Notes under the pieces: model-generated | Seen by the model: the letters and a program-made list of their open reading frames with translations, nothing else | Told to the model about the DNA's origin: nothing | Database searches by the model: none | From: Colwellia sp. | GTDB lineage: Bacteria > Pseudomonadota > Gammaproteobacteria > Enterobacterales > Alteromonadaceae | Length of the DNA stretch: 63,262 nucleotides | Direction: 5' to 3' | Assembly: GCF_013215345.1 (NCBI RefSeq) | Contig: NZ_JABSOV010000016.1 | Location: 1-63,262 of the forward strand | Made by a program: the position numbers and the translations under genes | In this document: positions 17,520 through 48,266 of the stretch, piece after piece | How positions within the stretch are numbered: the first letter of the stretch is position 1 | Layout of the letters: every line of letters starts with the position of its first letter

Positions 17520-18166
17520 ATTTTTTATTTATTATCAATTTATTAAATTAAAAATATTTTATGAAATAGCCTCTGTTCAATATAACAAAAGTTCACTCAA
17601 TGGCAGACATACTAATGAGCTTAAATTGATAAAAAACTCGATAAAATTCCGTTTTAATTTTTAATTAATCTTTTTAAATTTCGTAAATAATAATTGAGTG
17701 TGAAGAGTTTAGAGTATAAATTTTACGTTTGGCGTACCAAAATGCGTACCCTACTTTAATATAACAATAAAATTTTAAAGGACTATATAATAAAACCTTT
17801 AGCTGTAACAAATAGATCAAGCGGTTAATAAATTAGTTGAATAGACCACATAAGTCAGCTAAACACTGCACTTTAACTCATTGTTTTAGCTTGTAGATAA
17901 ATCAAAATATAAATTATTCAAAGTTAAAGTTTCCTCTTACTTCACCCTACTATTATGCCCTTCAGGTTAGAATTAAAATATGTAACCTAAGTCGCTTACG
18001 CCTCCTGAGCGAAACAAAAAAGTCAATATAATTTTGGGTAATGGGTTTACAAAACAAACTTTCGTTGGTTTCCATTAGACTCATGAGTAAGCACTCTTAG
18101 ATGAAATGAACTTATTGTCCTACAGAGACAATTCTTTTAATTATATAACTAAAGGGTGTAATTGAT
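17520..18166. other. Intergenic region upstream of the catabolic island
   Basis: No gene is seen in these 647 bases. They separate the pldA pseudogene (minus strand) from the aldehyde dehydrogenase (plus strand) and are very AT-rich up to about 17900. The only clear signal is the palindromic operator at 18053-18070. The promoter of the five-gene operon must lie here or close to it. Confidence 0.6.
18053..18070. promoter_or_regulatory. Palindromic operator, site 1 (aldehyde dehydrogenase operon)
   Basis: AACAAAC-TTTC-GTTGGTT, an 18-bp near-perfect dyad 96 bases before the aldehyde dehydrogenase start. The same motif occurs at 28332, 29726, 29814, 42958 and 46257, each near the start of a transcription unit of the same catabolic island. 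Confidence 0.75.
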
Positions 18167-19600
18167 ATGAGTGTAAAAGTTGATCGAAATAGTATGTTCA
18201 CGTTACTTAGTCAGCAGCAAGAATCTTTTAAAAAGGCAGGTTACCCAGATTTAGAAATCAGAATTAGCCGACTTGATCGCCTACTGGCAATGCTAAAGAA
18301 ATACGACCGTCAAATTTGTAAAGTTGTTGCAGAAGATTTTGGCACTCGCCCAGAAGAGTTAACTCTTCTGGCTGAAGTTTATGCAACAATAGAGCACGCC
18401 AAAGATGCCATTATTAATGTAGAGCAATGGATGTCTCCTGAGCAGCGTAAAGCAATGTCACCCGGTTCAGACGCAGGAGCTACTGCCCAGATACGTTTCA
18501 TGCCTAAAGGGGTTGTCGGTATTATTGGCCCTTGGAATTTCCCAGTACATTTAGTCATTGCGCCATTAGTTTGCGTGTTAGCTGCTGGTAATAGAGCAAT
18601 GATTAAACCTTCTTCTGTAACACCTAAAACTGCAGAATTAATTGGCGAAATGATTGCAGAATTTTTCGATCCAACAGAGGTTACTGTCATATCGGGCAAT
18701 AATGTTTCAGATAAATTTACCAAACTACCTTTCGATCACATAGTCTTTACAGGTTCAACGGATAATGGCCGACATGTAATGCGAGCTGCTGCTGATAATC
18801 TTACACCTGTCACTTTGGAGCTGGGTGGTAAATCTCCGGTAATAATTGATAAATGTGCTGACTTATCTGTTGTTGCTTTGCGTATCATAACCGGAAAACT
18901 ATTTAATTCAGGACAAGTTTGTGTATGTCCAGATTACGCATTTGTACCAGAAGCAATGTTGCCTGCTTTACTCATCGAGTTAGAAAATGCAGTCAAAATT
19001 TTATACCCAACCATTGAAAATAATCCTGACTATACCTCAATCGTTAACCAGAACCATTTTCGTCGAATACAAAACCTACTTGATGATGCAAATGAAAAAG
19101 GCGTAGAAATTGTAACATTCAACCCAGCAGACGAAAATTATGATGAATCAGTAAATCGCAAGCTATTACCACGAGTACTAGTGAATCCTTCGGATGAAAC
19201 AGCGGTGATGAAAGAAGAAATTTTTGGCCCCCTACTTCCGTTAAAAAGCTACAACCAACTTGATGAAGTAATCGAATATTTGCATACAAAAGATCACCCC
19301 TTAGCGCTTTATTATTTTGGCGAAAATGAGACAAACAAAGCGCTATTGCGTGACAATATATTATCGGGTGGCATGACTGTCAACGATGTTGTTGTGCAAG
19401 TGATCTGTGATCAACTACCGTTCGGTGGTGTCGGTGCTAGTGGTATGGGTCGCTATCACGGTATTGAAGGCTTTATTGAATTTTCTCATTTAAAAGGGGT
19501 TTATACACAAACGCCTTCTGAGGAAATAGCCGGATTTATGCGACCTCCTTATAACGATACTATACGTGACATGCTAGAGAAAAACATTAGCGAAGCTTAA
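18167..19600 (+). CDS. Aldehyde dehydrogenase (class 3 / coniferyl-aldehyde dehydrogenase type)
   Basis: A 477-residue NAD(P)-dependent aldehyde dehydrogenase. Motifs are GPWNFPVHL near 121, the general base Glu218 in TLELGGKSP, the nucleophile Cys252 in FNSGQVCVCPDY, and EEIFGPLLPL. The short length and the GPWNFP motif fit the group that includes coniferyl-aldehyde and long-chain aldehyde dehydrogenases. It opens a five-gene operon (spacers 53-114 bases) behind an operator, and probably oxidises the aldehyde made by the zinc alcohol dehydrogenase at 28441 to an acid for CoA activation. The exact substrate is inferred. Confidence 0.93.
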   Translation: MSVKVDRNSMFTLLSQQQESFKKAGYPDLEIRISRLDRLLAMLKKYDRQICKVVAEDFGTRPEELTLLAEVYATIEHAKDAIINVEQWMSPEQRKAMSPGSDAGATAQIRFMPKGVVGIIGPWNFPVHLVIAPLVCVLAAGNRAMIKPSSVTPKTAELIGEMIAEFFDPTEVTVISGNNVSDKFTKLPFDHIVFTGSTDNGRHVMRAAADNLTPVTLELGGKSPVIIDKCADLSVVALRIITGKLFNSGQVCVCPDYAFVPEAMLPALLIELENAVKILYPTIENNPDYTSIVNQNHFRRIQNLLDDANEKGVEIVTFNPADENYDESVNRKLLPRVLVNPSDETAVMKEEIFGPLLPLKSYNQLDEVIEYLHTKDHPLALYYFGENETNKALLRDNILSGGMTVNDVVVQVICDQLPFGGVGASGMGRYHGIEGFIEFSHLKGVYTQTPSEEIAGFMRPPYNDTIRDMLEKNISEA

Positions 19601-19653
19601 TCATATTTACACGAATTAGTTCAAATTTAATTTTCATTTAGGAAGTAATTAGT

Positions 19654-20622
19654 ATGACATTGCCTATTTCATTATCAGATAACATATCTCTACCTGTTGT
19701 AGCAGCACCAATGTTTATTCTTTCAAATCCAGACCTAGTCATTGCTCAATGCAAAATGGGAATTGTAGGGTCTTTTCCTGCTCTCAATGCCCGACCTGCT
19801 GAAGAGCTTGAAGTTTGGTTAGAGAAAATTAGCAGTGCACTGGAAAAACACAATGCATCAGATCCTCAAAGACGTGCGGCTCCCTTCGCTGTAAATCAAA
19901 TTGTCCATAGCTCCAATGATCGGTTAGAACACGATCTAGCTCTGTGCGTTAAATACAAAGTACCCATTGTAATTACGTCACTAGGGTGCAAGCAATTCGT
20001 CATTGATACAATACATTCATATGGTGGATTAGTTTTTCACGATGTGATCAACAACGACTTTGCAAAAAAAGCGGTATCTAAAGGCGTAGATGGACTTATT
20101 GCTGTTGCCGCTGGCGCAGGAGGTCATGCAGGCACGACCTCTCCTTTTGCTCTCATACAAGAAATCCGAGAGTGGTTCGATGGACTTTTATTATTATCAG
20201 GTTCCATTGCTACAGGTAATTCAATACTAGCTGCTCAAGCGATGGGGGCAGATATGGCTTATATGGGGTCAACCTTTATAGCCACTAAGGAGGCAAATGC
20301 AACCAATGAATATAAACAAGCGGTAATAGATCATTCGTCTTCAGATATTATTTACACTAATTTATTCTCTGGCATCCACGCCAATTACCTAGGTCCTTCC
20401 ATAGAAGCTGCAGGTCTAAACCCTAAAGATTTACCAGAAAGTGATCCATCAAAAATGAACTTTGGTGTCGATAATAAAGCTACTTCTGTAAAAGTCTGGA
20501 GGGATATATGGGCTTGTGGTCATGGAATAGGTGCTGTCAAAGAACTTCTTTCAACCGAAGATGTCATATCGAGGCTAGAACATGAATATTACGTAGCACA
20601 AGATCGATTGTTAGGAAAGTAA
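19654..20622 (+). CDS. Nitronate monooxygenase-family FMN protein
   Basis: A 322-residue TIM-barrel flavoprotein of the 2-nitropropane dioxygenase/NMO family: LPVVAAPMF at the N-terminus, the GVDGLIAVAAGAGGHAG motif with the family's catalytic His, LSGSIATGNSILAAQAMGADMAYMGSTF for phosphate binding, and a C-terminus WACGHGIGAV. Many family members in lipid or terpenoid clusters act as flavin oxidoreductases or enoyl reductases rather than on nitronates, so the chemistry here is open. It is second in the operon with an SD GGAAG before its ATG. Confidence 0.88.
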   Translation: MTLPISLSDNISLPVVAAPMFILSNPDLVIAQCKMGIVGSFPALNARPAEELEVWLEKISSALEKHNASDPQRRAAPFAVNQIVHSSNDRLEHDLALCVKYKVPIVITSLGCKQFVIDTIHSYGGLVFHDVINNDFAKKAVSKGVDGLIAVAAGAGGHAGTTSPFALIQEIREWFDGLLLLSGSIATGNSILAAQAMGADMAYMGSTFIATKEANATNEYKQAVIDHSSSDIIYTNLFSGIHANYLGPSIEAAGLNPKDLPESDPSKMNFGVDNKATSVKVWRDIWACGHGIGAVKELLSTEDVISRLEHEYYVAQDRLLGK

Positions 20623-20678
20623 GTAAATTACTGACTTTATCCTAATAAAATTATTATAAAAATAGAGAGTGAAAAACT

Positions 20679-21578
20679 ATGAATACAACAGCACAAAACT
20701 CACATATACCTAGTAAAGATGAATATTTTCAAAAACTTAAAAGAAGTCCTATCTTTTCATTACCAGCATTTTTTCTATTCGTACTTGGAATGACCATTTT
20801 AGCTGGCGGTACGTATTTGTCCATTTCAGGTGAAATACCAGTATGGGCTGCGACTGTGGCAAATGGATTCGGAATCTATTTTCTTTTTTCTATAGCACAC
20901 GAATCTATGCATCGCTGTCTTTCTAGTATAGCCCCTATCAATTCATTTCTAGGCCGTGTATCCATGTGGATACTTGTACCTGCAGCCCCTTATGAAATTG
21001 CACGTTGGGCTCATTTACAGCATCATAGATTTACCAACGGTCCAAAGGATCCTGACCGCTTTATTCATCATGGTAAATGGTGGACCATGCCTTTACGCTG
21101 GGCAAACTTTGATATGAACTACATGTATATCTTTTTTAGAGATGGTGGAGAACACAGAAAACGCCATGCAATACCACTGGTTATTTCGGTTAGCATTTTT
21201 GCAGCTATAATTGCAACATTGACCTATTTTGGCTACGGCATGGAAGTACTATTTTACTGGTTTTTACCTTCACGTATAGCGCTAGCAATGATAGCTTTTG
21301 TGTTTGTGTTTTTACCCCATTACCCTGGAGTGACTTCGGCAGATGAAAATCCTTATCATGCGACAACAACTAGACTTGGTTTCGAATGGCTTTTAACACC
21401 TATTATGCTTTATCAAAACTACCATCTTATTCATCACCTTTATCCGAATGCCCCATTTTATAATTATATAAAAATCTGGCATCTAAAATACGATGAGATA
21501 GTAGAACATAACCCTGCAATTCAAAAACCTTTTAGTCTTACACCGGTTAATGTCATTACTCAAGAAACACCTTCTTAA
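20679..21578 (+). CDS. Membrane di-iron fatty acid desaturase/hydroxylase family protein
   Basis: A 299-residue membrane protein with about four to five hydrophobic segments and three His boxes: H74ESMH78, H112LQHH116 and H249LIHH253, plus H214 in FLPHYPG. This is the fatty acid desaturase/carotenoid hydroxylase superfamily. It is about 100 residues shorter than AlkB and lacks the NYxEHYG motif, so it is not a classical alkane hydroxylase. The fused rubredoxin/reductase encoded nearby is the obvious electron donor. I infer that it introduces oxygen or a double bond into the hydrophobic substrate of the island; which of the two cannot be decided from sequence. Confidence 0.85.
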   Translation: MNTTAQNSHIPSKDEYFQKLKRSPIFSLPAFFLFVLGMTILAGGTYLSISGEIPVWAATVANGFGIYFLFSIAHESMHRCLSSIAPINSFLGRVSMWILVPAAPYEIARWAHLQHHRFTNGPKDPDRFIHHGKWWTMPLRWANFDMNYMYIFFRDGGEHRKRHAIPLVISVSIFAAIIATLTYFGYGMEVLFYWFLPSRIALAMIAFVFVFLPHYPGVTSADENPYHATTTRLGFEWLLTPIMLYQNYHLIHHLYPNAPFYNYIKIWHLKYDEIVEHNPAIQKPFSLTPVNVITQETPS

Positions 21579-21692
21579 GCACGGTAAAATAACACCGTTG
21601 AATATCCTACATATATTAAGAGAGGGGTCTTAACATACCTCCACTCCTGAATCACAAGAGTGATTTATAAATAGCTAATTTAAGGACTTATT

Positions 21693-22459
21693 ATGAAATT
21701 AAATAAAAAAGTCGTCAAAGTAACAGGTGGTGCTTCAGAATTCGGTTTCGTAACTTGCCAAGAATTATCTAAACAGGGTGAAAAAATTGTAGTTTTTGAT
21801 TTAAACGAAGATGCAGGAAAATTACTTGTTACGGGTTTAGGTGATAATGTCATTTTCGCCAAAGTAGGTGTTACCGATGAAACCCCTATTGCCAAGGGCA
21901 TACAACAAGCTATTAATACCTTTGGCAGCATTCATGTTTGCATCAACTGCGCTGGTATTATTTCAGGTGGCAAAACCGTTGGTCGTTTTGGTGCTTTAGC
22001 TTTAAACATATTCGCTCAAGTTATTAATATAAACCTAGCTGGAAGTTTTAATGTACTGCGTTTAGCCGCAGAACAAATGGCTAAAAACGAACCAGACGTT
22101 AAAGGTGATCGTGGTGTTATTATTAATACGGCATCAGTTGCAGCATTCGATGGTCAAATAGGTCAAGCAGTTTATAGCGCAAGTCGAGGGGGATAGCAGC
22201 GATGACCTTACCAATTGCCCGAAACCTAGCCCCACTTGGCATCCGTATCATGGCCATTGCCCCTGGCATTTGCGATACGCCGATGAGGAAAGGGTTGAGT
22301 AATGAAGTCCATGACCCTTTCCTCAAAAGGGTACAAAACCCTAAGCGTTTTGGTGACCCTATTGAGTATGCTGAATTAGCGTCACATATAATTACCAACA
22401 GCTATCTCAATGGAGAAGTTATTCGTCTAGATGGCTCCATTCGGATGGAACCTAGGTAA
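21693..22459 (+). pseudogene. HSD17B10-type short-chain dehydrogenase, frameshifted
   Basis: Two adjoining frames (21693-22196 and 22202-22459) make one SDR of the 3-hydroxy-2-methylacyl-CoA dehydrogenase (HSD17B10) type: [20 protein letters not shown], then YSASRGG, then IAAMTLPIARNLAPLGIRIM, ending NGEVIRLDGSIRMEPR. The break falls in a run of five G at about 22188-22192; one more G restores the frame. Key residues have also drifted: the catalytic Lys of YxxxK is Arg, the nucleotide motif TGxxxGxG reads TGGASEFG, and NNAG reads NCAG. I read it as a decaying gene, because a lone sequencing error would not explain the residue changes. It sits between the desaturase and the racemase. Confidence 0.85.
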
Positions 22460-22522
22460 AATCATTGTAAAACTTCCCCTATTGGGGGCTATAACTAACC
22501 TCTTTTTTCTAAGGTGCTCTCC

Positions 22523-23698
22523 ATGCTTAGTGATATTAAAATATTAGATTTATCAACCTTACTACCAGGGCCATACGCTTCAATGATGCTTGCCGATTTA
22601 GGCGCAGAAGTGTTACGTGTTGAGTCTTCAACTCGTACTGATTTATTGCGTGAAATGATGCCAAAAGTGGGTGAATCGTCTGCTGCACATCAATATTTAA
22701 ATCGTTCAAAAAAATCAATTGCTCTCGACTTAAAGAAACCCGAGGCTATTGAAATAATCAAAGCGCTTGTCAAAAAATATGATGTCGTACTTGAACAATT
22801 TAGACCCGGTGTTATGAATAGATTAGGCATTGGTTATGAAAAAATAAAAGCAATAAATCCAAGTATAATTTATTGTGCAATTACTGGTTATGGCCAAACA
22901 GGTCCATATAAAAATCGTGCCGGTCATGATCTAAACTACCTTTCAATTTCTGGTATTAGCAGTTACTCAAAAAGAAAAAAACAAGCTCCTGTTCCACAAG
23001 GGATACAAATCGCTGATGTAGCAGGAGGCTCCCTGCATAGCGTTATTGGTATATTAGCGGCCCTACATCACCGTCAAAAAACGGGTCAAGGTCAATTCAT
23101 TGATATCAGTATGACCGATTGTGCCTTTGCTTTAAATGCGATGGGCATGCCGGAAACATTGGCTAGCAATAATGCAACAAATGCCGAGTCACATTTACTT
23201 AATGGTGGGAGTTTTTATGATTATTATCCAACTAGCGATGGACGGTATATATCTATTGGAAGCATAGAGCCGAAGTTTTTTAATGGTTTGTGTAAGTTAC
23301 TTAATTTAGAGAGTTTGATACCACTCGCTAATAAAGCCTCAGCACAGAAACAGATAAAAGACAGTTTTACACAGACTTTTAAGCAAAAGTCTTTTACTCA
23401 ATGGCAAAGCATATTTGCAGATTTAGATTTATGTGTTGAACCAGTATTAGATCTTAAAGAGGCCAGTAACCATCCTCAATTAATTGCTAGAAACATGATT
23501 ATTGACGTACCACAAAAACAGAATGGCCTACAAAAGCAGCTAAGTAATCCAATTAAATTTTCAAATTATCAAGTAAAATATCAGCAAACCGGTGGTGAAG
23601 TTGGCGCCGATAGTAACGAGATACTCAGTCAACTTGGGTTTAATGCTACAAGCATAGCAATGCTTAAAAAAAATGGCGTGGTAAATAACACTAATTAA
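22523..23698 (+). CDS. Alpha-methylacyl-CoA racemase-like family III CoA-transferase
   Basis: About 391 residues of the CaiB/BaiF/AMACR fold: LLPGPYASMMLADLGAEVLRVE, the GYGQTGPYKNRAGHDLNYL block and YISIGSIEPKFF. The residues equivalent to the racemase triad of mycobacterial MCR are all present: His in AGHDLNY (about 135), Asp in QIADVAGG (about 165) and Glu in IEPKF (about 249). This favours a true 2-methylacyl-CoA racemase over a CoA-transferase. I use ATG 22523, with AAGG eight bases before it, over GTG 22514. It ends the operon, followed by a terminator. Racemisation of the 2-methyl centre is needed for beta-oxidation of methyl-branched chains. Confidence 0.88.
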   Translation: MLSDIKILDLSTLLPGPYASMMLADLGAEVLRVESSTRTDLLREMMPKVGESSAAHQYLNRSKKSIALDLKKPEAIEIIKALVKKYDVVLEQFRPGVMNRLGIGYEKIKAINPSIIYCAITGYGQTGPYKNRAGHDLNYLSISGISSYSKRKKQAPVPQGIQIADVAGGSLHSVIGILAALHHRQKTGQGQFIDISMTDCAFALNAMGMPETLASNNATNAESHLLNGGSFYDYYPTSDGRYISIGSIEPKFFNGLCKLLNLESLIPLANKASAQKQIKDSFTQTFKQKSFTQWQSIFADLDLCVEPVLDLKEASNHPQLIARNMIIDVPQKQNGLQKQLSNPIKFSNYQVKYQQTGGEVGADSNEILSQLGFNATSIAMLKKNGVVNNTN

Positions 23699-23720
23699 AA
23701 ATCAACAACGTTATTCTTCT

Positions 23721-23744
23721 AGGAGGGTAATTTCCTCCTTTTTA
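23721..23744 (+). terminator. Rho-independent terminator
   Basis: AGGAGG (23721-23726), seven-base loop, CCTCCT (23734-23739), then a T tract. It closes the 18167-23698 operon and faces the convergent regulator gene. Confidence 0.75.
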
Positions 23745-23820
23745 TTCTAGATAAAATAAATTACAGGGTATAAAAGTGTAAACAAACATGGGTTTGAAAT
23801 TAATCATTAAAAACAAAAGA

Positions 23821-39764: not shown

Positions 39765-40166
39765 TTATAAGGCAACAACTGCCTCACCTATTAGCGTGCG
39801 AACATCATCTTGATTAACCGCCACAATTTCTAATCGAGCACGCTGTTCACCACCCTCTTCAAATAATTCAACTACCGTACCACTACAGGTGATCACATCT
39901 TGCAATTGGGTTATTGTTGCGAAGCGATTACTAAATTTACGTAGTTGAGATTGAGGCTTCCAGTTGGTTAACATACGCCCCAAATAAGCCATAGATAACA
40001 TGCCATGGGCAAAAACATCAGACATACCCGCTTTTTTAGCAAAATCACTATCAATATGTATAGGGTTATGGTCTCCAGAAGCACCTGCATATAACGCCAA
40101 TGTAGTACGAGAAATCGACGGTAGTGTTAATGATGGGATTGCAGTTCCTATTGTAATATCAGACAT
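39765..40166 (-). CDS. MaoC-type (R)-enoyl-CoA hydratase, catalytic subunit
   Basis: A 133-residue hotdog protein carrying the hydratase 2 motif LYAGASGDHNPIHIDSDFAKKAG, with the catalytic Asp and His, and the AHGMLSMAYLGRML helix. The ATG at 40166 has SD GAGGAAG; the longer TTG start at 40181 is less likely. It probably pairs with the adjoining 149-residue MaoC-like subunit in a heteromeric hydratase, as ChsH1/ChsH2 do in cholesterol side-chain degradation. Confidence 0.9.
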   Translation of the reverse strand: MSDITIGTAIPSLTLPSISRTTLALYAGASGDHNPIHIDSDFAKKAGMSDVFAHGMLSMAYLGRMLTNWKPQSQLRKFSNRFATITQLQDVITCSGTVVELFEEGGEQRARLEIVAVNQDDVRTLIGEAVVAL

Positions 40167-40177
40167 TCTTATCTTCC

Positions 40178-40627
40178 TCAAACACTTGGATTACGATAAA
40201 CCAGTGAATTAATTGCTCTTGCAACCAAGTCACCATTTTGATTTGTGTAAGTGCTTTCCAACACAACAAATTCTAGCGCTCCAGACTTTTTGTCAAACAT
40301 ATCTTTAATCTTGGAGGTTACTGTGATGTTATCACCTGCGTAAATCATGCCTAAGTATTCAAACTCCTGAGAACCATGAAGAAGTCGGCTAATATCCATA
40401 CTTAAAAAGTTCAATACGGGCAATAATTCCGGCCCTTCCATATCTAATGGAAATGGAAAGGTTGGTGCTGCTAGCATCGCTTTATATCCAGCATCATGTG
40501 CGGCCGTTTCAGAGAAATATACGGGATTAGTTTCACCTATCGCCTCAGCAAAAAATTTCAGTCGTCCTTTCTCAATATCAACATTGAATGAGTCAAATTC
40601 ATGGCCAACTTTACTGCGATCTAACAT
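40178..40627 (-). CDS. MaoC-like dehydratase, non-catalytic partner subunit
   Basis: A 149-residue hotdog protein of the FAS1-type dehydratase N-terminal group: FAEAIGETNPVYFSETAA lies where the hydratase motif would be, but Asp and His are replaced by Glu and Tyr/Phe. It ends 11 bases before the ATG of the catalytic subunit. By family analogy it forms the substrate-binding half of a heteromer. SD AAGGA precedes ATG. Confidence 0.88.
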   Translation of the reverse strand: MLDRSKVGHEFDSFNVDIEKGRLKFFAEAIGETNPVYFSETAAHDAGYKAMLAAPTFPFPLDMEGPELLPVLNFLSMDISRLLHGSQEFEYLGMIYAGDNITVTSKIKDMFDKKSGALEFVVLESTYTNQNGDLVARAINSLVYRNPSV

Positions 40628-40642
40628 AATGTAATCCTTCTT

Positions 40643-41821
40643 TTATACTTTACGGTACATAGTCACAACTGCTGCACCACCTAACCCTAAGTTATGCTGT
40701 AATGCCACGCGAGCACCCGGCACCTGTCTGTCACCCGCTGCACCACGTAGATGCCAAACCAGCTCAGTAGCCTGTGCTAAACCAGAAGCTCCTATTGGAT
40801 GACCTTTAGACATCAAACCGCCTGAAGGGTTAACAACGTATTTACCACCATAAGTATTGTCAGCATCGTTAATAAACTTCTCCGCCTCGCCTTCGCCACA
40901 TAAACCTAGCCCTTCATAAGTGATCACTTCGTTAGGAGTAAAACAGTCATGTAACTCGACCACTTGAGCTTCTTCAGGGCCCATGCCTGCTTGCTCGTAA
41001 GTTTCTTGAGCAGCCTTAGCAGTCATCTTGGCACCTATCAAGTCGATAGGATTATCCCAAGTGTCAGCTAAATCGGTTGCCATCGACTGACCAACAATCT
41101 CAACATCAGCAGTTATACCGTGTTTTTTAGCAAAAGCTTCACTACAAACGATAACCGCTGCTGCACCACAAGTGGGAGGACACGCCATAAGTCGAGTTAA
41201 ATAGGGTTCAAAAATCACAGGGGCACCCATTACTTCTTCAAGCGTCAATGGATTATCAAAAAGTGAATAGGGATTCTTCACCGCATGGCTTCGTGTTTTG
41301 ACTGAAATCTTACCGAAAATGTTAGGGTTGGCACCGTATTTTTCAATGTAATGGGTGCCTGCTTGTCCGAACAGCCTTAACGCTAACGGTCCCTGGGGTG
41401 CTTCTGGTGCTGCTTTATCTAACGCTCCAAGCATACTAGAAAAAGGCGATTCACGATCTTCCCAATGACTACCCAATGCTCCGCGTTGCATCTCTTCGAA
41501 ACCAAATGCTAGTGCGCACTCAATCGCGCCTGAGGCAACTGCCTGACGAGCTAAAAACAGTGCTGTGGAGCCAGAGGAACAGTTATTATTCACATTGACT
41601 AATGGGATGCCTGTTTTGCCAACATCATAAAGACCGTGCTGTCCACAGGTACTGTCACCATAAATATAGCTGGCGAAAGCCTGCTGCACTTTATCATAGT
41701 TAATACCAGCATCAGTAAGCGCTAGCTTTATAGCTTTAGACGCCATTACGCGATAAGGTTCTTGTTTTCCTGGTTTAGTGAACTTAATCATTCCAACACC
41801 AGCGATACGTACATTTTTCAT
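40643..41821 (-). CDS. SCP-x-type lipid-transfer thiolase
   Basis: A 392-residue thiolase-fold enzyme. The nucleophile is Cys81 in VNVNNNCSSGSTAL, His291 lies in ELHDCFTPNE, His341 in SKGHPIGASG, and the C-terminus is QHNLGLGGAAVVTMYRK as in SCP-x. No SCP2 sterol-carrier domain is fused. SCP-x enzymes cleave 2-methyl-branched 3-ketoacyl-CoAs in peroxisomes; the bacterial Ltp relatives act as thiolases or retro-aldolases on sterol side chains with a MaoC/DUF35 partner. No DUF35 protein is encoded here, which favours thiolase action. Spacing to the hydratase is 15 bases. Confidence 0.9.
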   Translation of the reverse strand: MKNVRIAGVGMIKFTKPGKQEPYRVMASKAIKLALTDAGINYDKVQQAFASYIYGDSTCGQHGLYDVGKTGIPLVNVNNNCSSGSTALFLARQAVASGAIECALAFGFEEMQRGALGSHWEDRESPFSSMLGALDKAAPEAPQGPLALRLFGQAGTHYIEKYGANPNIFGKISVKTRSHAVKNPYSLFDNPLTLEEVMGAPVIFEPYLTRLMACPPTCGAAAVIVCSEAFAKKHGITADVEIVGQSMATDLADTWDNPIDLIGAKMTAKAAQETYEQAGMGPEEAQVVELHDCFTPNEVITYEGLGLCGEGEAEKFINDADNTYGGKYVVNPSGGLMSKGHPIGASGLAQATELVWHLRGAAGDRQVPGARVALQHNLGLGGAAVVTMYRKV

Positions 41822-41844
41822 TTTATATATCCTAAAAAATTGGT

Positions 41845-42765
41845 TTATTTCTTGGCATTCAAAAGATCAATACCAACATACTTACTAACAGCGTTAAAGG
41901 TATCAACAATTGACTCAGCCACATCTGCATCGGTAAAGTCACAAACTTTATCCCACTGCTGTGCAATTTGTTCGGCGCTTATTGGATTTTTTGTACCCAA
42001 TGCAAGGCCTTGTGAACGCTGATATCTAAGCTTACTAAACCAGCCTGCGCCAACTTCAATCACAGAGCCATTTTCGGTACTGTCTTGTGCACAAAGTTTT
42101 ACCACTAAAGGCACCACAAAATCTGGACTAGTCGCTTTTAATACTTCTTCTGGCCAAATGGTTTCCGTTAATCTAGAGCCTGCTATAGGGGCAATAATAT
42201 TAGATAGAATATTCTTACGTCCACCTTCAATAGCTAGCGTACGACCCAGGCCAGTCAATGCTGATTTAGCGGAACTGTAGTTTGCTTGACCAAAGTTGCC
42301 ATAAATACCTGCTGCTGAGGTGGTAAATATAATGCGACCAAAACCTTGTTTTTGCATATACGGCCATGCAGCCTTAGTGACTTTATAAGCACCATCAACA
42401 TGCACCTTATAGATGATGTCCCAATCGTTGTCCTGCATTTTGGCAAAACTAGCATCACGTAAAATACCGGCGTTATTTATCACAACATCTATACGATCGT
42501 AATTATCGATTGCGGTTTTTACGATATTCTCTCCATTTTCCACAGAGTCATAGTTAGCAACGGCTTCACCACCAAATGCTTTTATTTCGTTAACCACTTT
42601 ATCTGCAGCTGCTGAACTTGATCCTTCACCACTACCAGTACCACCAAGATCATTTACCACTACACTCGCGCCACGCTTGGCAAATTCAAGGGCATACGCA
42701 CGGCCTAAGCCACCGCCACCGCCAGTTACAATTACAACCTTTTTATCAAAACGGATATCATTCAC
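41845..42765 (-). CDS. HSD17B4-type short-chain 3-hydroxyacyl-CoA dehydrogenase
   Basis: About 306 residues of the SDR domain of peroxisomal D-bifunctional protein: VIVTGGGGGLGRAYALEFAKRGA, VVVNDLGG, INNAGILRDASFAKMQDNDWD, and the catalytic Y-SS-A-K in NYSSAKSALTGLG. The GTG at 42765 has a strong SD (AGAGGAAGA) five bases upstream and starts VNDIRFDKK like homologues; the ATG at 42801 lacks one. It is the first gene of the operon, 192 bases from operator site 5. It should oxidise (3R)-3-hydroxyacyl-CoA made by the MaoC pair. Confidence 0.9.
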   Translation of the reverse strand: MNDIRFDKKVVIVTGGGGGLGRAYALEFAKRGASVVVNDLGGTGSGEGSSSAAADKVVNEIKAFGGEAVANYDSVENGENIVKTAIDNYDRIDVVINNAGILRDASFAKMQDNDWDIIYKVHVDGAYKVTKAAWPYMQKQGFGRIIFTTSAAGIYGNFGQANYSSAKSALTGLGRTLAIEGGRKNILSNIIAPIAGSRLTETIWPEEVLKATSPDFVVPLVVKLCAQDSTENGSVIEVGAGWFSKLRYQRSQGLALGTKNPISAEQIAQQWDKVCDFTDADVAESIVDTFNAVSKYVGIDLLNAKK

Positions 42766-43202
42766 TTTTATCTTCCTCTTATTGCTAACGGAGTTATTCA
42801 TTATTAAAACTTATCTAGTTTCAGCTATAACCTTACTGAGAGACAAAGACTAAAAATCATATTTAGTTTCCTACTACTTGTTTAAAAGCATTAAGGAGCA
42901 AGTTTTAATTAGCTAAGTATTTTCAACAAAATTTTCATTCATCTGAGAAAGTCAAACAACAAACTTTCGTTGGTTTTCTGCACTAAATTAAACTAGGAGG
43001 TTATTTTTTACTGGTATATCAGACTGATTTAAAATAAATTATTTTACCTGAAAGATATTGTAAATTTATAAAACGAATTTTCTGTAAGAAAAAGAGTTCG
43101 CTGGAATAGTCATTACTCCATTAATTCCAGCATTAATGGAGTCTTTCAAGAAGATGTTCTATGACAGGTTACTTATCAAGATTTAGATTCTATAACAGCT
43201 AA
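42766..43202. other. Promoter region of the beta-oxidation operon
   Basis: These roughly 440 bases hold no gene. Operator site 5 is at 42958-42975. Around 43110-43150 lies the inverted repeat ACTCCATTAATTCCAGC/GCATTAATGGAGT, which may terminate transcription coming from the right. Confidence 0.5.
42958..42975. promoter_or_regulatory. Palindromic operator, site 5 (beta-oxidation operon)
   Basis: AACAAAC-TTTC-GTTGGTT, identical over 18 bases to site 1 at 18053. It lies about 190 bases upstream of the SDR GTG start on the minus strand. Confidence 0.75.
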
Positions 43203-43587
43203 TGTAATACCTGAGATACAAAAAATTCGTCAGCTTCATTGTTAATATGAATACCCCCAAACTTAAGTCGTATTGTCAATATGAGTGGGCCTCGCTGTGC
43301 CAATCACTTTGCCGTATTTCATTTTCTTTAGGTGATTGGTATTCATCTCAAGTCCCACACACCGCATGGTTTTTCGGCTGCTTAAGTACCTGCAATACTG
43401 CCCAAGGTTTCAGCCAGGGTGACCGGCGAACATCCATGCAGAAAGCCAATTGGTTGATGTTTTATCCACTCAACTAGCATAGTACCTGTTTTAAAATCAT
43501 CACCAATTTCGATGACTTCTATACCAAGGTATTTTCTGAAAGTTTATTAATTTCTTTAATTGTTGCCTTCTTTTTCCAAATTCTCAT
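43203..43587 (-). pseudogene. Hotdog-fold thioesterase (YdiI/PaaI-like), degenerate
   Basis: From ATG 43587 (SD AAGG) the minus strand reads MRIWKKKATIKEINKLSENT, then after a frame change IEVIEIGDDFKTGTMLVEWI, KHQPIGFLHG, LAETLGSIAG, RCVGLEMNTNHLKKMKYGKV, IGTARPTHI and NEADEFFVSQ. This is the acyl-CoA thioesterase pattern (HQPxGxLHGGxxxxLAET, with the catalytic Glu). Stops and at least three frameshifts break it. It would be the third gene of the ligase-isomerase operon, so the cluster once had its own CoA-releasing enzyme. Confidence 0.8.
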
Positions 43588-43620
43588 ATTATTACCTTAC
43601 GATTATTTCAGCTTAAAAAT

Positions 43621-44391
43621 TTATCGATCTGAAAATTCTTGAATGAGTTGTTGAGCCTGCTCAGTTCGCACTAACACTCCCTGAATTAGAGCTTCATACT
43701 CAAGCGATTCTGATAACGTAGCAGTATCTGAAAATTTTATCTGTGATTTAAGTGCCTTCAAAGCAGGAGCTGGCTGGCAAGCAATTTGACTAGCAAATCC
43801 TAAAGTTCTCGGCATTAAATCTGCATCAATTACCATTTCGTATGTAAGTCCCCATTGCTGCGCTTTTTCCGCATCAAGAAAGTCAGCTGACATGGTTAAT
43901 GCAGCCGTGCGCATAGGTCCTATTCTTCGGTTAAGCATCCATGATGCGCCCATGTCCATAGCCATACCAATTTTAGCAAAACTAAAAAAATAACGAGCAG
44001 ATTCAGCTGAAAAAACAATATCACAGGCCAGCGCAAGACTAACGCCTGCACCAGCAGCAACACCATTAACAGCAGCGATTACTACTTTGGACATTGATTG
44101 TATAAACTCTACAACTGGGTTAGCAAATTCTCTGATCCAATTTTCCAGTCTATCTGCGTTTTCTTGTAATAGACCACCGGTCAAGTCGGCACCAGAACAA
44201 AAGCCTCGACCAACACCAGTAAGTATAACTACGCGAACATCATCGTCACTTTCTACTTCCTTAAGCGTTGCTAACAATTCAACCAATAAATTAACATCAA
44301 GCGCGTTAAGCGTTTTTTTCTTAAGCATAGACAAAACAGCAACACCGTTAGGGTGACGCTCAAAACCAATTACACTATCAAACTGTGTCAT
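43621..44391 (-). CDS. Enoyl-CoA hydratase/isomerase family protein, PaaG-like
   Basis: A 256-residue crotonase. The oxyanion motif GVAAGAGVSLALACD is present. The two catalytic Glu of true hydratases are absent: the first position falls in GVSLAL, the second is Lys in SFAKIGM. The segment FAKIGMAMDMGASWMLNRRIG resembles PaaG (FSKLGLIPDCGGTWLL), keeping the Asp that serves PaaG-type isomerases. Double-bond isomerisation is therefore more likely than hydration. SD GAGGA precedes ATG. It follows the CoA ligase gene by 91 bases. Confidence 0.88.
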   Translation of the reverse strand: MTQFDSVIGFERHPNGVAVLSMLKKKTLNALDVNLLVELLATLKEVESDDDVRVVILTGVGRGFCSGADLTGGLLQENADRLENWIREFANPVVEFIQSMSKVVIAAVNGVAAGAGVSLALACDIVFSAESARYFFSFAKIGMAMDMGASWMLNRRIGPMRTAALTMSADFLDAEKAQQWGLTYEMVIDADLMPRTLGFASQIACQPAPALKALKSQIKFSDTATLSESLEYEALIQGVLVRTEQAQQLIQEFSDR

Positions 44392-44482
44392 TAAACATAT
44401 CCTCTTTAATTATGATTTTTATTTATAACCTGAGCTTTTATCAACAGGTTAAACAGTTGGTTCAAGTAAATTATTGACGTGT

Positions 44483-46048
44483 TCAAGACACCTGAGCTTC
44501 ACGATCTTTCCAATAAAATTTACGTAACTCAGCTTTAAGTACTTTACCTGCGCCAGAAATAGGTAAAGCATCAATGAAAGCAATAGACCTAGGACATTTA
44601 TATCCTGCAATATGCTCTTTACAAAAACTACGTAACTGTTTGGTTGTCAAAATTTCGCTATTTTCAACATTAGGAGCAGGTACGATAACAACATGAACTG
44701 TTTCTCCCCACTCAGCAGAGGGAATACCGATTACCGCACACTGAGCAACATATGGGTGTTGTGAAACAATGGTCTCCACTTCAGATGAATAGATATTTTC
44801 TCCGCCAGAGATGATCATATCTTTAACACGATCAACAACAAAGATATCGCCCTGTTCATCGATATATCCTCCATCTCCAGTGTGAAGCCAGCCGTCAATA
44901 ATAGTTTTTTGCGTCAATTCAGGTTTTCCCCAGTAACCCGCCATAACATTAGGCCCACGAACCGTAATTTCCCCGACAGTTCCAGCTGGTACCGGGCAGC
45001 CTTGCTCATCTACCATACGAACTTGTTGGACAAGCCCTGGAATGCCAGCACTTTTAATTTTTCCTGATTCAATTGCTTCATAAGTGTGGTGGTTTTTCGA
45101 TGAAATAGAAATTAAACCACACTCGGTCATACCATAACCTTGAACAAAACCAATTTTAGGCAATTCTTCCAATGCTTTTTTCATCGTCCCCAGAGGCATA
45201 GGAGAGGCACCATAAATAATGTTTTGCACCATCTCAAAATCATCTTTATTGAAAGATGGATCATCCAACAACATTTGCACCATGGTAGGTATAAGTAGCA
45301 TATCGCTTACACGCTTTTCTCTAATTATTTTCATCACCTCTGCAGGAATAAACGCAGGTAATATAATTTGACTTCCACCCAAAAGAAAAGACATCAACAA
45401 CATTCCAAGACCAGCTATATGAAACAGTGGTGCACAATTTAACCAACGAGGCTCAGCAGACAATCCGGTCATTTGGCTAGCTGTTAATGCAAATACCATT
45501 AAGTTGGTATGACTTAACATAACGCCTTTAGGTGAACCCGTTGTACCGCCTGTATAAAAAATTCCGGCAAGATCATCGCCATTGCGATACATATCCTCAA
45601 TCGGATCTGACTCTGCCACCAAGCCTTCATAACTGACCATACCTTCAGGACATTCACTATCCCCAGCATAAATTACACATTCTAACAGTGGTACCTTCTT
45701 TTTTATTTCTGCAACCATTGGCGCAAAAGTATCATCAACAACAAGAAACCGAGCACCAGAATCAACTAATGAGTAGGAAATTTCAGCAATACTCCAGCGC
45801 ACATTTACTAAATTGTAGAAACCTCCAGCCCAAGGGACAGCAAATAAATATTCTAAATACCGGCAAGAGTTCATTGACAATAAAGGTAAGCATTCTCCTT
45901 CTTTAAGGCCAATATTACGTAGACCACCTGCCAAACATGCAACCCGCGTCACCAGTTCACGGTAAGTTAAAGATTGGTTTTGATAACATATCGCTTCCTG
46001 CTCAGGACGAAGCAATACATTACGGTGTAAAAGCTGTGTTAGGTTCAT
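44483..46048 (-). CDS. AMP-forming fatty acyl-CoA ligase (class I adenylate-forming)
   Basis: A 521-residue ligase with P-loop YTGGTTGSPKGVMLSH, YGMTECGLI, hinge WLHTGDGGYIDEQGDIFVVDRVKDMIISGGENIYSSEVE and the C-terminal catalytic Lys in ISGAGKVLKAELRK. It should activate the carboxylic acid derived from the island's substrate. Members of this branch serve medium-chain, branched or ring-bearing acids, so the specificity is open. It is first in the operon; SD AAGG precedes ATG, and operator site 6 is 208 bases upstream. Confidence 0.92.
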   Translation of the reverse strand: MNLTQLLHRNVLLRPEQEAICYQNQSLTYRELVTRVACLAGGLRNIGLKEGECLPLLSMNSCRYLEYLFAVPWAGGFYNLVNVRWSIAEISYSLVDSGARFLVVDDTFAPMVAEIKKKVPLLECVIYAGDSECPEGMVSYEGLVAESDPIEDMYRNGDDLAGIFYTGGTTGSPKGVMLSHTNLMVFALTASQMTGLSAEPRWLNCAPLFHIAGLGMLLMSFLLGGSQIILPAFIPAEVMKIIREKRVSDMLLIPTMVQMLLDDPSFNKDDFEMVQNIIYGASPMPLGTMKKALEELPKIGFVQGYGMTECGLISISSKNHHTYEAIESGKIKSAGIPGLVQQVRMVDEQGCPVPAGTVGEITVRGPNVMAGYWGKPELTQKTIIDGWLHTGDGGYIDEQGDIFVVDRVKDMIISGGENIYSSEVETIVSQHPYVAQCAVIGIPSAEWGETVHVVIVPAPNVENSEILTTKQLRSFCKEHIAGYKCPRSIAFIDALPISGAGKVLKAELRKFYWKDREAQVS

Positions 46049-46787
46049 TTTATAACGCCTTTTTTTTTAAACTAAAGCCTGTAAAACCTTGTTCAGGTCA
46101 CAATCAGCCTAGCAAGAACATTGCTCGTTTCGCTTCAATTTTAAATAAGCATCAAACAATGTATCGATATTTTTTTGCTACAGCACATCAATAAAACAGA
46201 CGTACAAAAACAAATTTATAATAGTAGATAGCTTGCCTAGTTATAAATAAATAATGAACAAACTAAAGTTTGTTTTTATAGCAACTATGGTTAGCCGTGT
46301 GATTTATAGAGAGCATTGTTAGTTTGATTGTTGAGTTTGCTCATTGTGAGGTGCATAAAGTTCTTTCACCTTGTCACAAAATACATTTTCTTTCATATAG
46401 TACAAAGTTAAGATTAATTCTATGGCGTTATGTGCCCCATAGTCAGATAGAACTAATAAGAGTATGCCCGCTATATGATCGTAAAGTTGACGTTTGATAT
46501 TCAGACTGGTTTTATTCCGCTATGCTCACCATGAAGTCTTTAACAAAAGAGCTACTTCATTCGGAATTCACTAATTCAGTTGATGACCGATATAGGTTAT
46601 GAGTTCAACCTTAGCCCTATCTTTGAACCACTGAAATGTAATTAACTTTTTATCAAGTTAACTTAGCCTAAATGTAATATAAATCATGTCTACAATATTA
46701 CTATTAGGCTAGCATCCATGTATCGGTTAAAATGCCCCTTATACATTGCGACTGAGTCATCTCTGGCGAAACCAAAAGGTAAAAAAA
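46049..46787. other. Divergent intergenic region with operator and ORF remnant
   Basis: The 739 bases between the divergent CoA ligase and flavin monooxygenase genes hold operator site 6 at 46257-46274. A minus-strand open stretch, 46319-46519, reads IKRQLYDHIAGILLLVLSDYGAHNAIELILTLYYMKENVF across its middle and lacks a start codon. It looks like the tail of a lost gene, family not recognised. The remainder shows nothing I can name. Confidence 0.45.
46257..46274. promoter_or_regulatory. Palindromic operator, site 6 (CoA ligase operon)
   Basis: AACAAAC-TAAA-GTTTGTT, a perfect dyad with 7-base arms. Its CAAAC-N4-GTTTG core resembles the known site of PsrA-type TetR regulators of fatty acid oxidation. 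It lies 208 bases before the CoA ligase start and 513 before the divergent monooxygenase. Confidence 0.75.
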
Positions 46788-48266
46788 TTGGAAAAAACAC
46801 AGCATAATTGGACTACTTGTCAGGAGTGTCAGGGACGCGGAAAAAAAACGAGAAAGCTGCGCAAAAAAGTGAAGCTCAACTTTCAAAGAGCGTTAGCGCA
46901 CTTTGAAGAAATGAATAGCGAAGGCACGCCCCCCGTTCGACCGAAAGGTCACCTCTATGATTGTTTGAACTGTAGCGGCTCTGGCTTAGTTCAATCAGCT
47001 AGTCATCCTATAGCCGATACAGAAAGCTACCCACACGTTGCTATTATTGGTGGTGGCATAGGTGGAGTAGCTTTGGCTGTAGCATGTAAACACCGCGGTA
47101 TTCCTTTTACACTTTATGAACGTGATAGCGGCTTTGGTGCTCGATCTCAAGGGTATGGCCTCACGTTGCAACAGGCAAGTAAAGCAATCGAAGGATTAGG
47201 GATTTTATCACTAAAGCATGGCGTAATTTCTACAAGACATGTGGTACACACCACTGATGGCAAAGAGATTGGAGAATGGGGCATAAGAAAGTGGTTGCCG
47301 TCTGAGTTAAAGACCTCGGTGAAACGCACAAATATACATATCGCCCGCCAATCTTTACGCTTTGCTTTGCTTGAAGAACTTGGAGGTCATGATGCTGTTA
47401 AGTGGGATCACCAATTCGTCGATTTTAAGGAAACTAAAGGTGCCCCTGTTGATTTGAGCTTTAAAGTTAACACTAAGGGAAAGACCAAGAACGAGAGCAG
47501 CGCAGAAATAAAGCATGTTAAGGCAGACCTTGTTGTGGGTGCCGATGGTATCCGCAGTTCGGTAGGAAAATTATTGATTGGAGATGAGTTAAGACCGCTA
47601 CAATACCTAGGTTGTATTGTGATTTTAGGTATCTGTCCTTTGGCTGATCTCAACGGGCTTGAAAGCCCTTTGCTCGACTCGGCTACGGTATTTCAAACCG
47701 CCAATGGCCATGAGCGAATCTACATCATGCCTTATGATTCAGAGTCGGTAATGTGGCAACTTAGCTTCCCTATACCAGAAGAGGATGCTAAGGCCTTGAG
47801 CGCTAAAGGTCCTCAAGCACTTAAAGAAGAAGCCTCTAAAAGGTGTCAGTGGCATGATCCCATTCCTCAAATTTTATCGGCTACTAAGTCATCGCTAGTT
47901 TCTGGTTACCCAGCTTATGACCGTGAATTACTCAGTGCAGAATGGCTGGAAAAATCAGATAAAGTAACCTTGATCGGCGATGCAGCCCACCCGATGAGTC
48001 CATTTAAAGGGCAAGGGGCAAATCAAGCTCTGTTAGATGCCCTATCATTGGCTCGGGGCATATCCATAGGATGTAGACCTATGTCTCAATGGCGCGAAGC
48101 GGGTGTAAGAGCAAGTGTATTAACTGAGTTTGAAGCAGAAATGTTGACCCGCAGTGCTTCTAAAGTGAAAGGCTCAGCAGAGGCTGCACAGTTCCTACAT
48201 TCCGATGTTGTACTTCATGAAGGTGATGAGCCAAGAGGACGATGCTTACTGAAAGAAGAGTCATGA
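46788..48266 (+). CDS. Flavin-dependent monooxygenase with N-terminal DnaJ-like zinc-finger segment
   Basis: About 492 residues from a TTG at 46788 (SD AAAGGT; no ATG lies upstream of the conserved part). Residues about 9-70 hold two CxxCxGxG units, CQECQGRG and CLNCSGSG, about 50 residues apart, as in DnaJ zinc fingers. A group A FAD hydroxylase follows: IIGGGIGGVALAVACKHRG, VVGADGIRSSVGK and LIGDAAHPMSPFKGQGANQALLDAL. Such enzymes hydroxylate aromatic or polycyclic substrates with NAD(P)H. It is divergent from the CoA ligase and may belong to the island's regulon. The zinc finger may help protein or substrate contact; this is a guess. Confidence 0.88.
   Translation: MEKTQHNWTTCQECQGRGKKTRKLRKKVKLNFQRALAHFEEMNSEGTPPVRPKGHLYDCLNCSGSGLVQSASHPIADTESYPHVAIIGGGIGGVALAVACKHRGIPFTLYERDSGFGARSQGYGLTLQQASKAIEGLGILSLKHGVISTRHVVHTTDGKEIGEWGIRKWLPSELKTSVKRTNIHIARQSLRFALLEELGGHDAVKWDHQFVDFKETKGAPVDLSFKVNTKGKTKNESSAEIKHVKADLVVGADGIRSSVGKLLIGDELRPLQYLGCIVILGICPLADLNGLESPLLDSATVFQTANGHERIYIMPYDSESVMWQLSFPIPEEDAKALSAKGPQALKEEASKRCQWHDPIPQILSATKSSLVSGYPAYDRELLSAEWLEKSDKVTLIGDAAHPMSPFKGQGANQALLDALSLARGISIGCRPMSQWREAGVRASVLTEFEAEMLTRSASKVKGSAEAAQFLHSDVVLHEGDEPRGRCLLKEES

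Follow-up and report, generated by a model that had tools for sequence, protein, structure and literature searches.

In animal peroxisomes, 2-methyl acids are broken down by alpha-methylacyl-CoA racemase (AMACR), acyl-CoA oxidase, D-bifunctional protein and SCPx, in that order, and a bacterial racemase of this kind from Mycobacterium sp. P101 is said, in the title of a 2004 paper by Sakai, to take part in methyl-branched alkane degradation. In the alkBFGHJKL/alkST system of Pseudomonas putida GPo1, the genes other than alkS provide a membrane enzyme of the FADS superfamily, a rubredoxin with its reductase (the product of alkT), alcohol and aldehyde dehydrogenases and an acyl-CoA ligase. The available part of PMC8784404 describes AlkS as a MalT/LuxR activator with an inverted repeat before both the oxygenase operon (PalkB) and its own gene, and joins alkS and alkT under the operon name alkST. 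AmeABCD of Castellaniella defragrans is used for growth on cyclic and acyclic monoterpenes, and deletion of ameABCD reduces monoterpene tolerance and yield, according to the sections of PMC6394551 available. Here we describe an island at positions 18,033–46,329 of a 63,262-nucleotide contig from Colwellia sp. (NZ_JABSOV010000016.1, assembly GCF_013215345.1; this whole stretch is the window), in which likenesses to all of these systems lie side by side.

We read the island as a catabolic regulon that moves by lateral transfer and serves the use of a hydrophobic substrate with methyl branches, most probably an isoprenoid alkane, alkene or alcohol, and give this reading a probability of about 0.6. 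A fuller version, which we advance tentatively and at somewhat below even odds, is that a mobile AlkS/AlkT-style regulon places a non-AlkB FADS-family hydroxylase, a fused rubredoxin/reductase, a complete AMACR/LCAD/MFE-2/SCP2 pathway and an AmeABCD cassette under one operator, and may so constitute a second, P450-free marine route to mineralise isoprenoid lipids and hydrocarbons. By gene content, what sets the island apart is that it couples a regulon of the alk type to a branched-chain module like that of peroxisomes and to a cassette of the AmeABCD type, and that two strains have it in common; a literature search within an open-licence library turned up no account of such a set. Pristane, phytane, squalene and phytol chains are plentiful in oil and marine organic matter, and the host of the window (genome of 4.24 Mb, 95.5% complete) is probably a marine bacterium.

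The racemase (22,514–23,698, plus strand) finds its best solved-structure match in MCR (219.7 bits), with CoA-transferases next at no more than 183 bits. Its residues H138, D168 and E252 align with H126, D156 and E241 of MCR, which the accessible text of PMC10967716 gives as the MCR catalytic triad. The triad is kept in 12/12 fetched homologues of at least 45% identity and reads F/D/T in one at 32%; one of these 13 sequences is the copy of the window gene itself (L001), and another is that of Pseudoalteromonas sp. NBT06-2. The protein, the sole CoA_transf_3 match in the genome, therefore fits the AMACR/MCR family by its triad, and racemisation of 2-methylacyl-CoA is its predicted reaction. An NCBIfam search ranks CoA-transferases first, all below cut-off; we rejected the assignment as an ordinary CoA-transferase because the triad is present here and lost in the 32% relative and in two plasmid proteins.

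The thiolase (40,643–41,821, minus strand) matches SCP2-thiolase type 1 at 431 bits, against 209 bits for the next other family, and passes the curated PRK08256 lipid-transfer family (636.9 vs cut-off 436). The nucleophilic cysteine and the HDCF motif have established roles in SCP2-thiolases; here the nucleophile C81, together with His291 and Cys293, is kept in 21/21 homologues and the motif is retained. The adjoining short-chain dehydrogenase/reductase (SDR; 41,845–42,801, minus strand; S162/Y175/K179) is of the HSD17B4/MFE-2 type of 3-hydroxyacyl-CoA dehydrogenase, with 377 bits to 17-beta-HSD type 4 and 528 bits in all to the two-domain (3R)-hydroxyacyl-CoA dehydrogenase 2et6. The split MaoC hydratase comprises a catalytic subunit with D37/H42 (39,765–40,181, minus strand) and a partner (40,178–40,627, minus strand; FAS1_DH_region), and resembles the HadAB pair: the HadB match reaches 53.6 bits, the HadA-type match is weak (28–35 bits), and the Asp/His pair is limited to the HadB-like subunit, where it is kept in 9/9. 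The acyl-CoA dehydrogenase (ACAD; 38,570–39,709, minus strand) is closest to an ACAD of unnamed specificity (341 bits), with the long-chain enzyme (LCAD) second at 310 bits. LCAD-type enzymes carry the catalytic Glu on the ERL helix and not at the C-terminal position of the medium-chain enzyme (MCAD); E242 of the island ACAD falls, in the alignment, on the LCAD residue for which 8w0z has Gln, and A363 occupies the MCAD position, so that by this residue pattern the enzyme is of the LCAD type. Glu is found at the LCAD position in 18/22 ACAD homologues of the fetched loci, the other four having the opposite pattern. An enoyl-CoA hydratase/isomerase (ECH; 43,621–44,391, minus strand) and an acyl-CoA ligase (44,483–46,048, minus strand; Pfam AMP-binding; NCBIfam PRK06187 at 489.7 bits, cut-off 476) complete the set. 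A sequence-only reading of this DNA had named the triad-bearing racemase, the SCP-x thiolase, the HSD17B4-type SDR and the split hydratase, and all four are borne out; indeed each enzyme class that it listed is present as an open reading frame (ORF) within 18,167–48,266, with catalytic residues intact where checked. Compared with the animal route, the racemase, the MFE-2-type SDR, the R-type hydratase and the SCP2-thiolase are held in common, whereas in the island the functions lie on separate small proteins, an ACAD takes the place of the oxidase, the hydratase is split in a HadAB-like way and no SCP2 domain is fused to the thiolase. The Mycobacterium racemase is a further bacterial example in branched alkane breakdown, as far as its title tells, but an actinobacterial one.

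We then asked how far these genes travel together. A thiolase match at 1e-80 was present in 11/39 genomes drawn from the genus and 8/196 drawn from the family, own genome included, and all 17 other genomes with a match at least this good served as relatives. In the seven family genomes among them we read 20 kb to either side of the thiolase, and in the ten genus genomes about 10 kb, or less where a contig ended; three more stretches came from one genome, G052. Recurrence was counted from 40% identity upwards. A racemase relative lies in the stretches of 11 of the 17 relatives, with the triad confirmed in 10 of the 11; the copy in G223 is cut by a contig end, which leaves the triad positions uncovered, and that of G052, 18 kb away from one of the thiolase copies, turned up in a stretch retrieved on account of the membrane enzyme. 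The MaoC subunits MaoC_C and MaoC_N recur in 8 and 7 relatives, ACAD in 7, the ligase (ACS) in 5 and the HSD17B4-type SDR in 4, against 0/19 proteins of the window flanks. No relative has a counterpart at this cut of the aldehyde dehydrogenase (ALDH), the membrane enzyme, the regulator, the rubredoxin fusion or the alcohol dehydrogenase (ADH), nor of DUF1329, YCF48, MMPL, Usp, ECH or the FAD monooxygenase (FMO), and the NMO-family protein and DUF1302 recur in G052 only. Of the set suggested earlier for a synteny search (racemase, SCPx thiolase, MaoC pair and DUF1302/1329), the racemase and both hydratase subunits recur in part of these thiolase-bearing relatives, DUF1302 in G052 only and DUF1329 in none. 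In six genus genomes the racemase adjoins the thiolase, and in five of these six the MaoC pair, SDR and ACAD stand in the same run; G030 and G052 carry the whole ACAD–MaoC–MaoC–thiolase–SDR unit at 66–81% identity. Three of 87 plasmid records with a thiolase match were read. One, from Sporosarcina, unites a thiolase of 66% identity and a triad racemase of 39% with a MaoC pair, an ACAD, a ligase and an ECH; the others, from Pseudosulfitobacter and Rhodococcus, have a 60% thiolase amid beta-oxidation genes, with a CoA_transf_3 relative lacking the triad on the Pseudosulfitobacter plasmid. The pathway logic of the sequence-only reading is supported. Its bacterial version of the peroxisomal route is not confined to the window: relatives share the core, and so, triad included, does the Sporosarcina plasmid. 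The animal peroxisomal set for 2-methyl acids occurs, then, as a bacterial module on chromosomes and plasmids alike, and we offer racemase, SCP2-thiolase, MaoC pair and FADS-type oxygenase as a marker set.

These results bear on a plainer explanation, in which the island would serve ordinary fatty-alcohol or linear alkane/ester use with a CoA-transferase, a fatty-acid desaturase and a general thiolase. The NCBIfam ranking of the CoA_transf_3 protein speaks for it, as does the requirement for DUF1302/1329 proteins on Tween 20 in P. putida (PMC10866462, in the part available); the triad residues at all three positions, a thiolase of the SCP2 and not the FadA type, an LCAD-type ACAD and the recurring racemase–thiolase linkage speak against it, and we consider it very unlikely.

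Several loci of the same genus (L059, L060, L061, L056 and L057) conserve a run in which a divergent regulator faces a MaoC pair–SDR–ACAD–racemase–SCP2 thiolase–GMC oxidoreductase series. The regulator is of the AraC type in L059 (Pfam), a TonB receptor precedes the racemase in L059–L061, and the GMC protein was recognised by Pfam in L059 and otherwise by eye. A sulfatase lies upstream of the run in L078 (Pfam) and L079 (by eye), and this sulfatase-associated run is perhaps a pathway for a sulfated branched alcohol.

The front end of the island comprises an ALDH (18,167–19,600, plus strand; Pfam Aldedh, 259.6 bits), an NMO-family FMN protein (19,654–20,622, plus strand; Pfam NMO, 74.5 bits), an FA_desaturase-family membrane enzyme (20,679–21,578, plus strand; Pfam, 105.8 bits), a rubredoxin fused to rubredoxin reductase (26,715–28,136, minus strand) and a zinc ADH (28,441–29,574, minus strand; Pfam ADH_N and ADH_zinc_N). 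In an alignment of nine sequences the membrane enzyme has nine invariant His residues (74, 78, 112, 115, 116, 214, 249, 252 and 253), which are spread over four regions (HxxxH, HxxHH, one isolated His and a second HxxHH); in FtAlkB, the irons are held by nine His from four motifs (PMC10110569, as far as its text was available). Its only curated NCBIfam matches, CrtR (beta-carotene hydroxylase, the best) and GntB, are far below cut-off, and a solved-structure sequence search gave no match up to E 1. A predicted model of moderate quality (mean pLDDT 71.5) returned in Foldseek two chloroplast FtsHi motor-complex chains at the top (E about 2e-4), then weak fold matches to FtAlkB 8sbb (probability 1.00, E 0.034, TM 0.46) and SCD1 4ymk (probability 0.84, TM 0.36). 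Given the model quality and the first rank of the FtsHi chains, the fold backs the superfamily only; we assign the protein to the FADS superfamily and regard it as a candidate di-iron hydroxylase.

In the fusion, the reductase portion matches rubredoxin reductase 2v3a at 387 bits and the other portion matches rubredoxin 2 of 2v3b at 88 bits, both of them P. aeruginosa proteins. That it feeds the membrane enzyme is suggested by shared dyads (see below), by the shared island and by relatives with a fused ferredoxin: in G052 and G219 an FA_desaturase domain and a C-terminal 2Fe-2S ferredoxin domain form one protein, with a triad racemase 0.9 and 2.7 kb away, so that another electron carrier beside the same enzyme pair supports a service of this kind. 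The corresponding ORFs are L043 9751-11676 and L063 17919-19850, in which the stretch between the domains has no Pfam hit at 1e-6. A rubredoxin-driven membrane oxygenase had been proposed earlier; the fusion and the FA_desaturase enzyme are both there, while the driving of one by the other is deduced from context.

The island falls into six putative transcription units between 18,167 and 46,048, as judged from strand and spacing: ALDH–NMO–FA_desaturase–(broken SDR)–racemase; rubredoxin/reductase–MalT/LuxR regulator; ADH alone; DUF1302–DUF1329–YCF48–MMPL–Usp; SDR–thiolase–MaoC–MaoC–ACAD; and ligase–ECH. Starting from an inverted 12-mer common to both island ends and then widening it, we found an 18-bp dyad, AACMAACTWWMGTTKGWT, at five places, 96–273 bp before the first gene of all six units; the 12-bp inverted pair of the ends is part of it. 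The copies lie at 18,053–18,070 (AACAAACTTTCGTTGGTT, 96 bp before ALDH), 28,332–28,349 (one mismatch, 195 bp before the rubredoxin/reductase gene), 29,726–29,743 (between the divergent ADH, 151 bp, and DUF1302, 273 bp), 42,958–42,975 (156 bp before the SDR–thiolase–MaoC–MaoC–ACAD unit) and 46,257–46,274 (208 bp before ligase–ECH, and 471 bp before an FMO gene on the other strand). With one mismatch allowed, the genome holds 12 copies of the pattern AACMAACNNNNGTTKGTT, five of them in the 28-kb island, and four of its six perfect genomic copies are in the island; a reversed control pattern occurs at eight genome places. An even spread of the 12 copies predicts 0.08 in the island (Poisson P 2.6e-8, a figure that is overstated because the pattern was built from island sites). 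Independent support comes from 813 kb of other fetched loci, in which there are only two places, each with one mismatch, and from NBT06-2, in which all five dyads are identical (90/90 bases, vs 1443/1646 other aligned non-coding bases in the same gaps). Because the dyad precedes every unit, has five of its 12 copies within 28 kb and is unchanged in the second strain, the island looks like one regulon; a compact island with one apparent switch is also a source of candidate inducible promoters. Promoter-like sites in 28,100–46,700 (40 vs a shuffle mean of 52, no excess) are no commoner than in shuffles, and we therefore claim no promoter.

The regulon is probably controlled by the island's own regulator, a MalT/LuxR-type protein (23,821–26,589, minus strand) with the AlkS-type domain set of ATPase, MalT TPR and LuxR HTH, as judged from Pfam domains (TPR_MalT and GerE); its NCBIfam MalT match (316.5 bits) is below cut-off. 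No other regulator gene occurs in the island, and this one follows that of the rubredoxin/reductase fusion. The island thus resembles the alk system in having a MalT/LuxR-type regulator beside a rubredoxin-reductase gene, inverted repeats before both the oxygenase operon and the regulator's own unit (a likeness of placement), and a membrane FADS-superfamily enzyme, rubredoxin, ADH, ALDH and acyl-CoA ligase. It differs in that the membrane enzyme hits no family named AlkB, rubredoxin and reductase form one protein, and a branched-chain beta-oxidation set and an AmeABCD-type cassette share the dyads.

NBT06-2 matches the window at 18,033–21,652, 21,989–23,753, 23,799–30,307 and 38,270–46,329, spread over two of its contigs; the long pieces are 85–94% identical, and some short ones as little as 77%. 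The 12.8-kb right flank has only three short matching pieces in the NBT06-2 genome (55–236 bases, 72–85%), and the left flank, compared with the L002 stretch only, one of 72 bases. These boundaries place the island ends at about 18,033 and 46,330, and the presence of the island in NBT06-2 with an almost unmatched right flank makes lateral transfer likely. In NBT06-2 a TonB receptor follows the island and transposase-like ORFs (recognised by eye) precede it. The span first proposed, 18,053–48,266, thus holds for the enzymes but not for its right end: the FMO gene at 46,746–48,266 is left out, since the shared DNA stops before it. Between two 600-bp stretches at the island ends there is no direct repeat of at least 10 bp, only inverted pairs, and a megablast of 18,033–42,900 against 72,556 plasmid records gave no match. 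Two unrelated catabolic operon groups lying merely side by side might have been suspected, as the right-hand ACAD–MaoC–MaoC–thiolase–SDR unit occurs without the left genes in G030 (racemase 12 kb off) and G052 at 66–81%, and the left-half membrane enzyme is rare in the family. Against this, the same dyad stands before units of both halves, and both halves are kept in NBT06-2, though on two contigs; we regard such chance adjacency as highly improbable.

Two components within the span, the MalT/LuxR regulator and a transporter cassette, were absent from the earlier enzyme list, which named DUF1302/1329 for the synteny check. The cassette consists of a DUF1302 outer-membrane protein (30,017–31,636; Pfam, 448.8 bits), a DUF1329 periplasmic protein (31,694–33,061; Pfam, 446.9 bits), a YCF48/BNR protein (33,195–34,355) and an MMPL/HAE3-like RND transporter (34,368–36,824; Pfam MMPL; NCBIfam HAE3 best, 154.8 bits, below its own cut-off), followed by a UspE-like universal stress protein (36,814–37,659), all on the plus strand. 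By families and order the first four are an AmeABCD-type cassette: in the available portion of PMC6394551 the Castellaniella system likewise has DUF1302, DUF1329, COG4447/YCF48-type and HAE3 RND proteins in the same order, while the island cassette lies within a branched-chain catabolic island and is likened by family and order. In P. putida, DUF1302 and DUF1329 proteins are required on Tween 20 and modelled as a transport complex (PMC10866462, again in part). With these two precedents the cassette argues for a lipophilic substrate, not for branching. The otherwise colinear NBT06-2 island lacks about 30,308–38,269, which holds most of the cassette and Usp, and keeps the first ~290 bases of DUF1302, with an insertion; because this start persists, the cassette was probably lost in NBT06-2 rather than gained in the window strain. 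NBT06-2 has another such cassette elsewhere (L077), at 30–46% identity. A 13-bp direct repeat, CTACTTTAACCTA, flanks the cassette at 30,183 and 37,969; we do not take it as the deletion point, since it is missing from the NBT06-2 contig and a repeat of equal length arose in 18/2000 random stretch pairs.

By family, the expected order of reactions is hydroxylation at the branched end, conversion to a 2-methyl acid and its CoA ester, racemisation to 2S, and then dehydrogenation, R-hydration, oxidation and thiolysis to propionyl-CoA. We postulate that the lipophile is dealt with at the envelope by the DUF1302/1329/YCF48/MMPL cassette and that the rubredoxin/reductase fusion supplies electrons to the FA_desaturase-type di-iron enzyme, which hydroxylates a terminal methyl beside a branch. 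ADH and ALDH would convert the alcohol to a 2-methyl acid, the ligase would form its CoA ester, and the racemase would interconvert 2R and 2S 2-methylacyl-CoA. The LCAD-type dehydrogenase, the MaoC pair, the HSD17B4-type SDR and the SCP2-thiolase could then release propionyl-CoA, with ECH and general beta-oxidation carrying on. By way of the shared 18-bp dyad the MalT/LuxR protein would, like AlkS, switch on every unit, among them the one that holds its own gene. Isoprenoid chains are favoured because a racemase is needed only if the substrate yields 2-methylacyl-CoA of the wrong hand. According to the accessible part of PMC6850023, Alcanivorax borkumensis SK2, a marine model examined by proteomics, when growing on pristane expressed a P450, alcohol oxidase, alcohol dehydrogenase and FadAB, and also has an AlmA-type monooxygenase; the word 'racemase' has 0 occurrences there. 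It too is a marine bacterium with terminal oxidation and then beta-oxidation of a branched alkane, and compared with its P450/FadAB set the island set would be a different solution.

The enzyme set and regulon fit the sequence-only reading that the island oxidises and shortens a methyl-branched substrate; the identity of that substrate stays conjectural, and a sterol side chain, which had been among the candidates, is weakened. The C27 side chains of bile acids are substrates of AMACR, HSD17B4 and SCPx in animals, so that sterol, bile-alcohol or steroid side-chain breakdown could be imagined: as in the peroxisomal synthesis of bile acids, a C27-type chain would be shortened by way of its 25-methyl acid. 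The available literature counts Pseudoalteromonas among predicted degraders of steroids, and related clusters in G052, G205 and G202 have TonB-receptor and sulfatase genes nearby (the sulfatase recognised by Pfam in L078 and otherwise by eye). Yet KshA_C, the mark looked for in 9,10-seco steroid degraders, was not found in the window genome (0/1; 95.5% complete) or in 19 others, in a search whose only responding control stayed below cut-off, which lowers the sterol reading and makes full sterol degradation, weakly, less likely. None of the Proteobacteria in PMC4810484, as far as its text was available, metabolised cholesterol. The Ltp2-ChsH2 retro-aldolase pairs a thiolase-like protein without the Cys with a DUF35-bearing MaoC subunit (PMC8399759, in part); as the island thiolase keeps its Cys and its MaoC subunit (149 aa) has no Pfam hit to DUF35, a steroid side-chain retro-aldolase of this type was rejected and that route is not indicated. 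We consider the sterol explanation unlikely.

Other observations weigh against a branched-chain regulon of the kind proposed. First, 6/17 thiolase-bearing relatives have no racemase in the fetched stretch. Second, the membrane enzyme is rare in the family: at 1e-40 or better it is found in 1/39 genus genomes (own) and 2/196 of the family draw (own and G164, 41%). Its relatives of 45–48% lie on sphingomonad plasmids (three of 14 matching records read, 24.8 kb each), amid aromatic-degradation genes in 2/3 records. No triad racemase was seen in the three stretches, so that the reaction of the membrane enzyme may differ; they show no rubredoxin in table or BLAST, the latter being blind to a lone small rubredoxin, and one has a 27% relative of the reductase. 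Third, the dyad statistics are partly circular, the cassette, missing from the NBT06-2 island, is not indispensable there, and the scheme gives no role to NMO or UspE. Lastly, the SDR of the left unit (21,693–22,459, plus strand) is broken in both strains: in the window it has a frame shift after YSASRGG and an altered nucleotide-binding motif, and in NBT06-2 it is more decayed, with stops and a deletion (L002, between 10901 and 11501). The plasmid neighbourhoods, namely pNL1 and a Sphingobium plasmid, point towards cyclic or aromatic terpenoid or alkyl-aromatic catabolism, in which a ring-borne methyl would be hydroxylated and the branched-chain enzymes would act on ring-opened 2-methyl CoA esters; in the part of the source cited above, AmeABCD too serves cyclic as well as acyclic monoterpenes. 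As there is no ring-cleaving dioxygenase or ring hydrolase among the Pfam-scanned island proteins, we find this quite unlikely, and prefer the isoprenoid alkane, alkene or alcohol.

NMO may itself belong to the pathway, as its relatives neighbour thiolase genes: in each of G052, G209 and G219 one of 48–50% lies no more than ~12 kb from genes for SCP2-thiolase. NMO genes near thiolase and MalT-like genes (21–31% to the window regulator) are at L066 16478-17461, L081 1355-2356 and L082 16927-17928, and a 49% NMO fragment stands behind the thiolase genes of the Sporosarcina plasmid (L095 14838-15185).

Rfam (gathering cut-off) and tRNA scans of the whole window returned nothing. The neighbours outside the island, where scanned, are ordinary genes (RecC, RND pump, TgpA/MoxR, DAHP synthase, NfeD/Band 7 and ApbE). 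Just left of the island, a phospholipase A1 gene (16,531–17,519) is apparently fragmented, its larger ORF covering Pfam positions 4–111 of 257 and its short tail ORF being assigned by eye. On the right, the gene at 46,746–48,266, ruled out as an island member by its position outside the segment shared with NBT06-2, is FAD_binding_3 monooxygenase-like and has an N-terminal stretch with two CxxC pairs.

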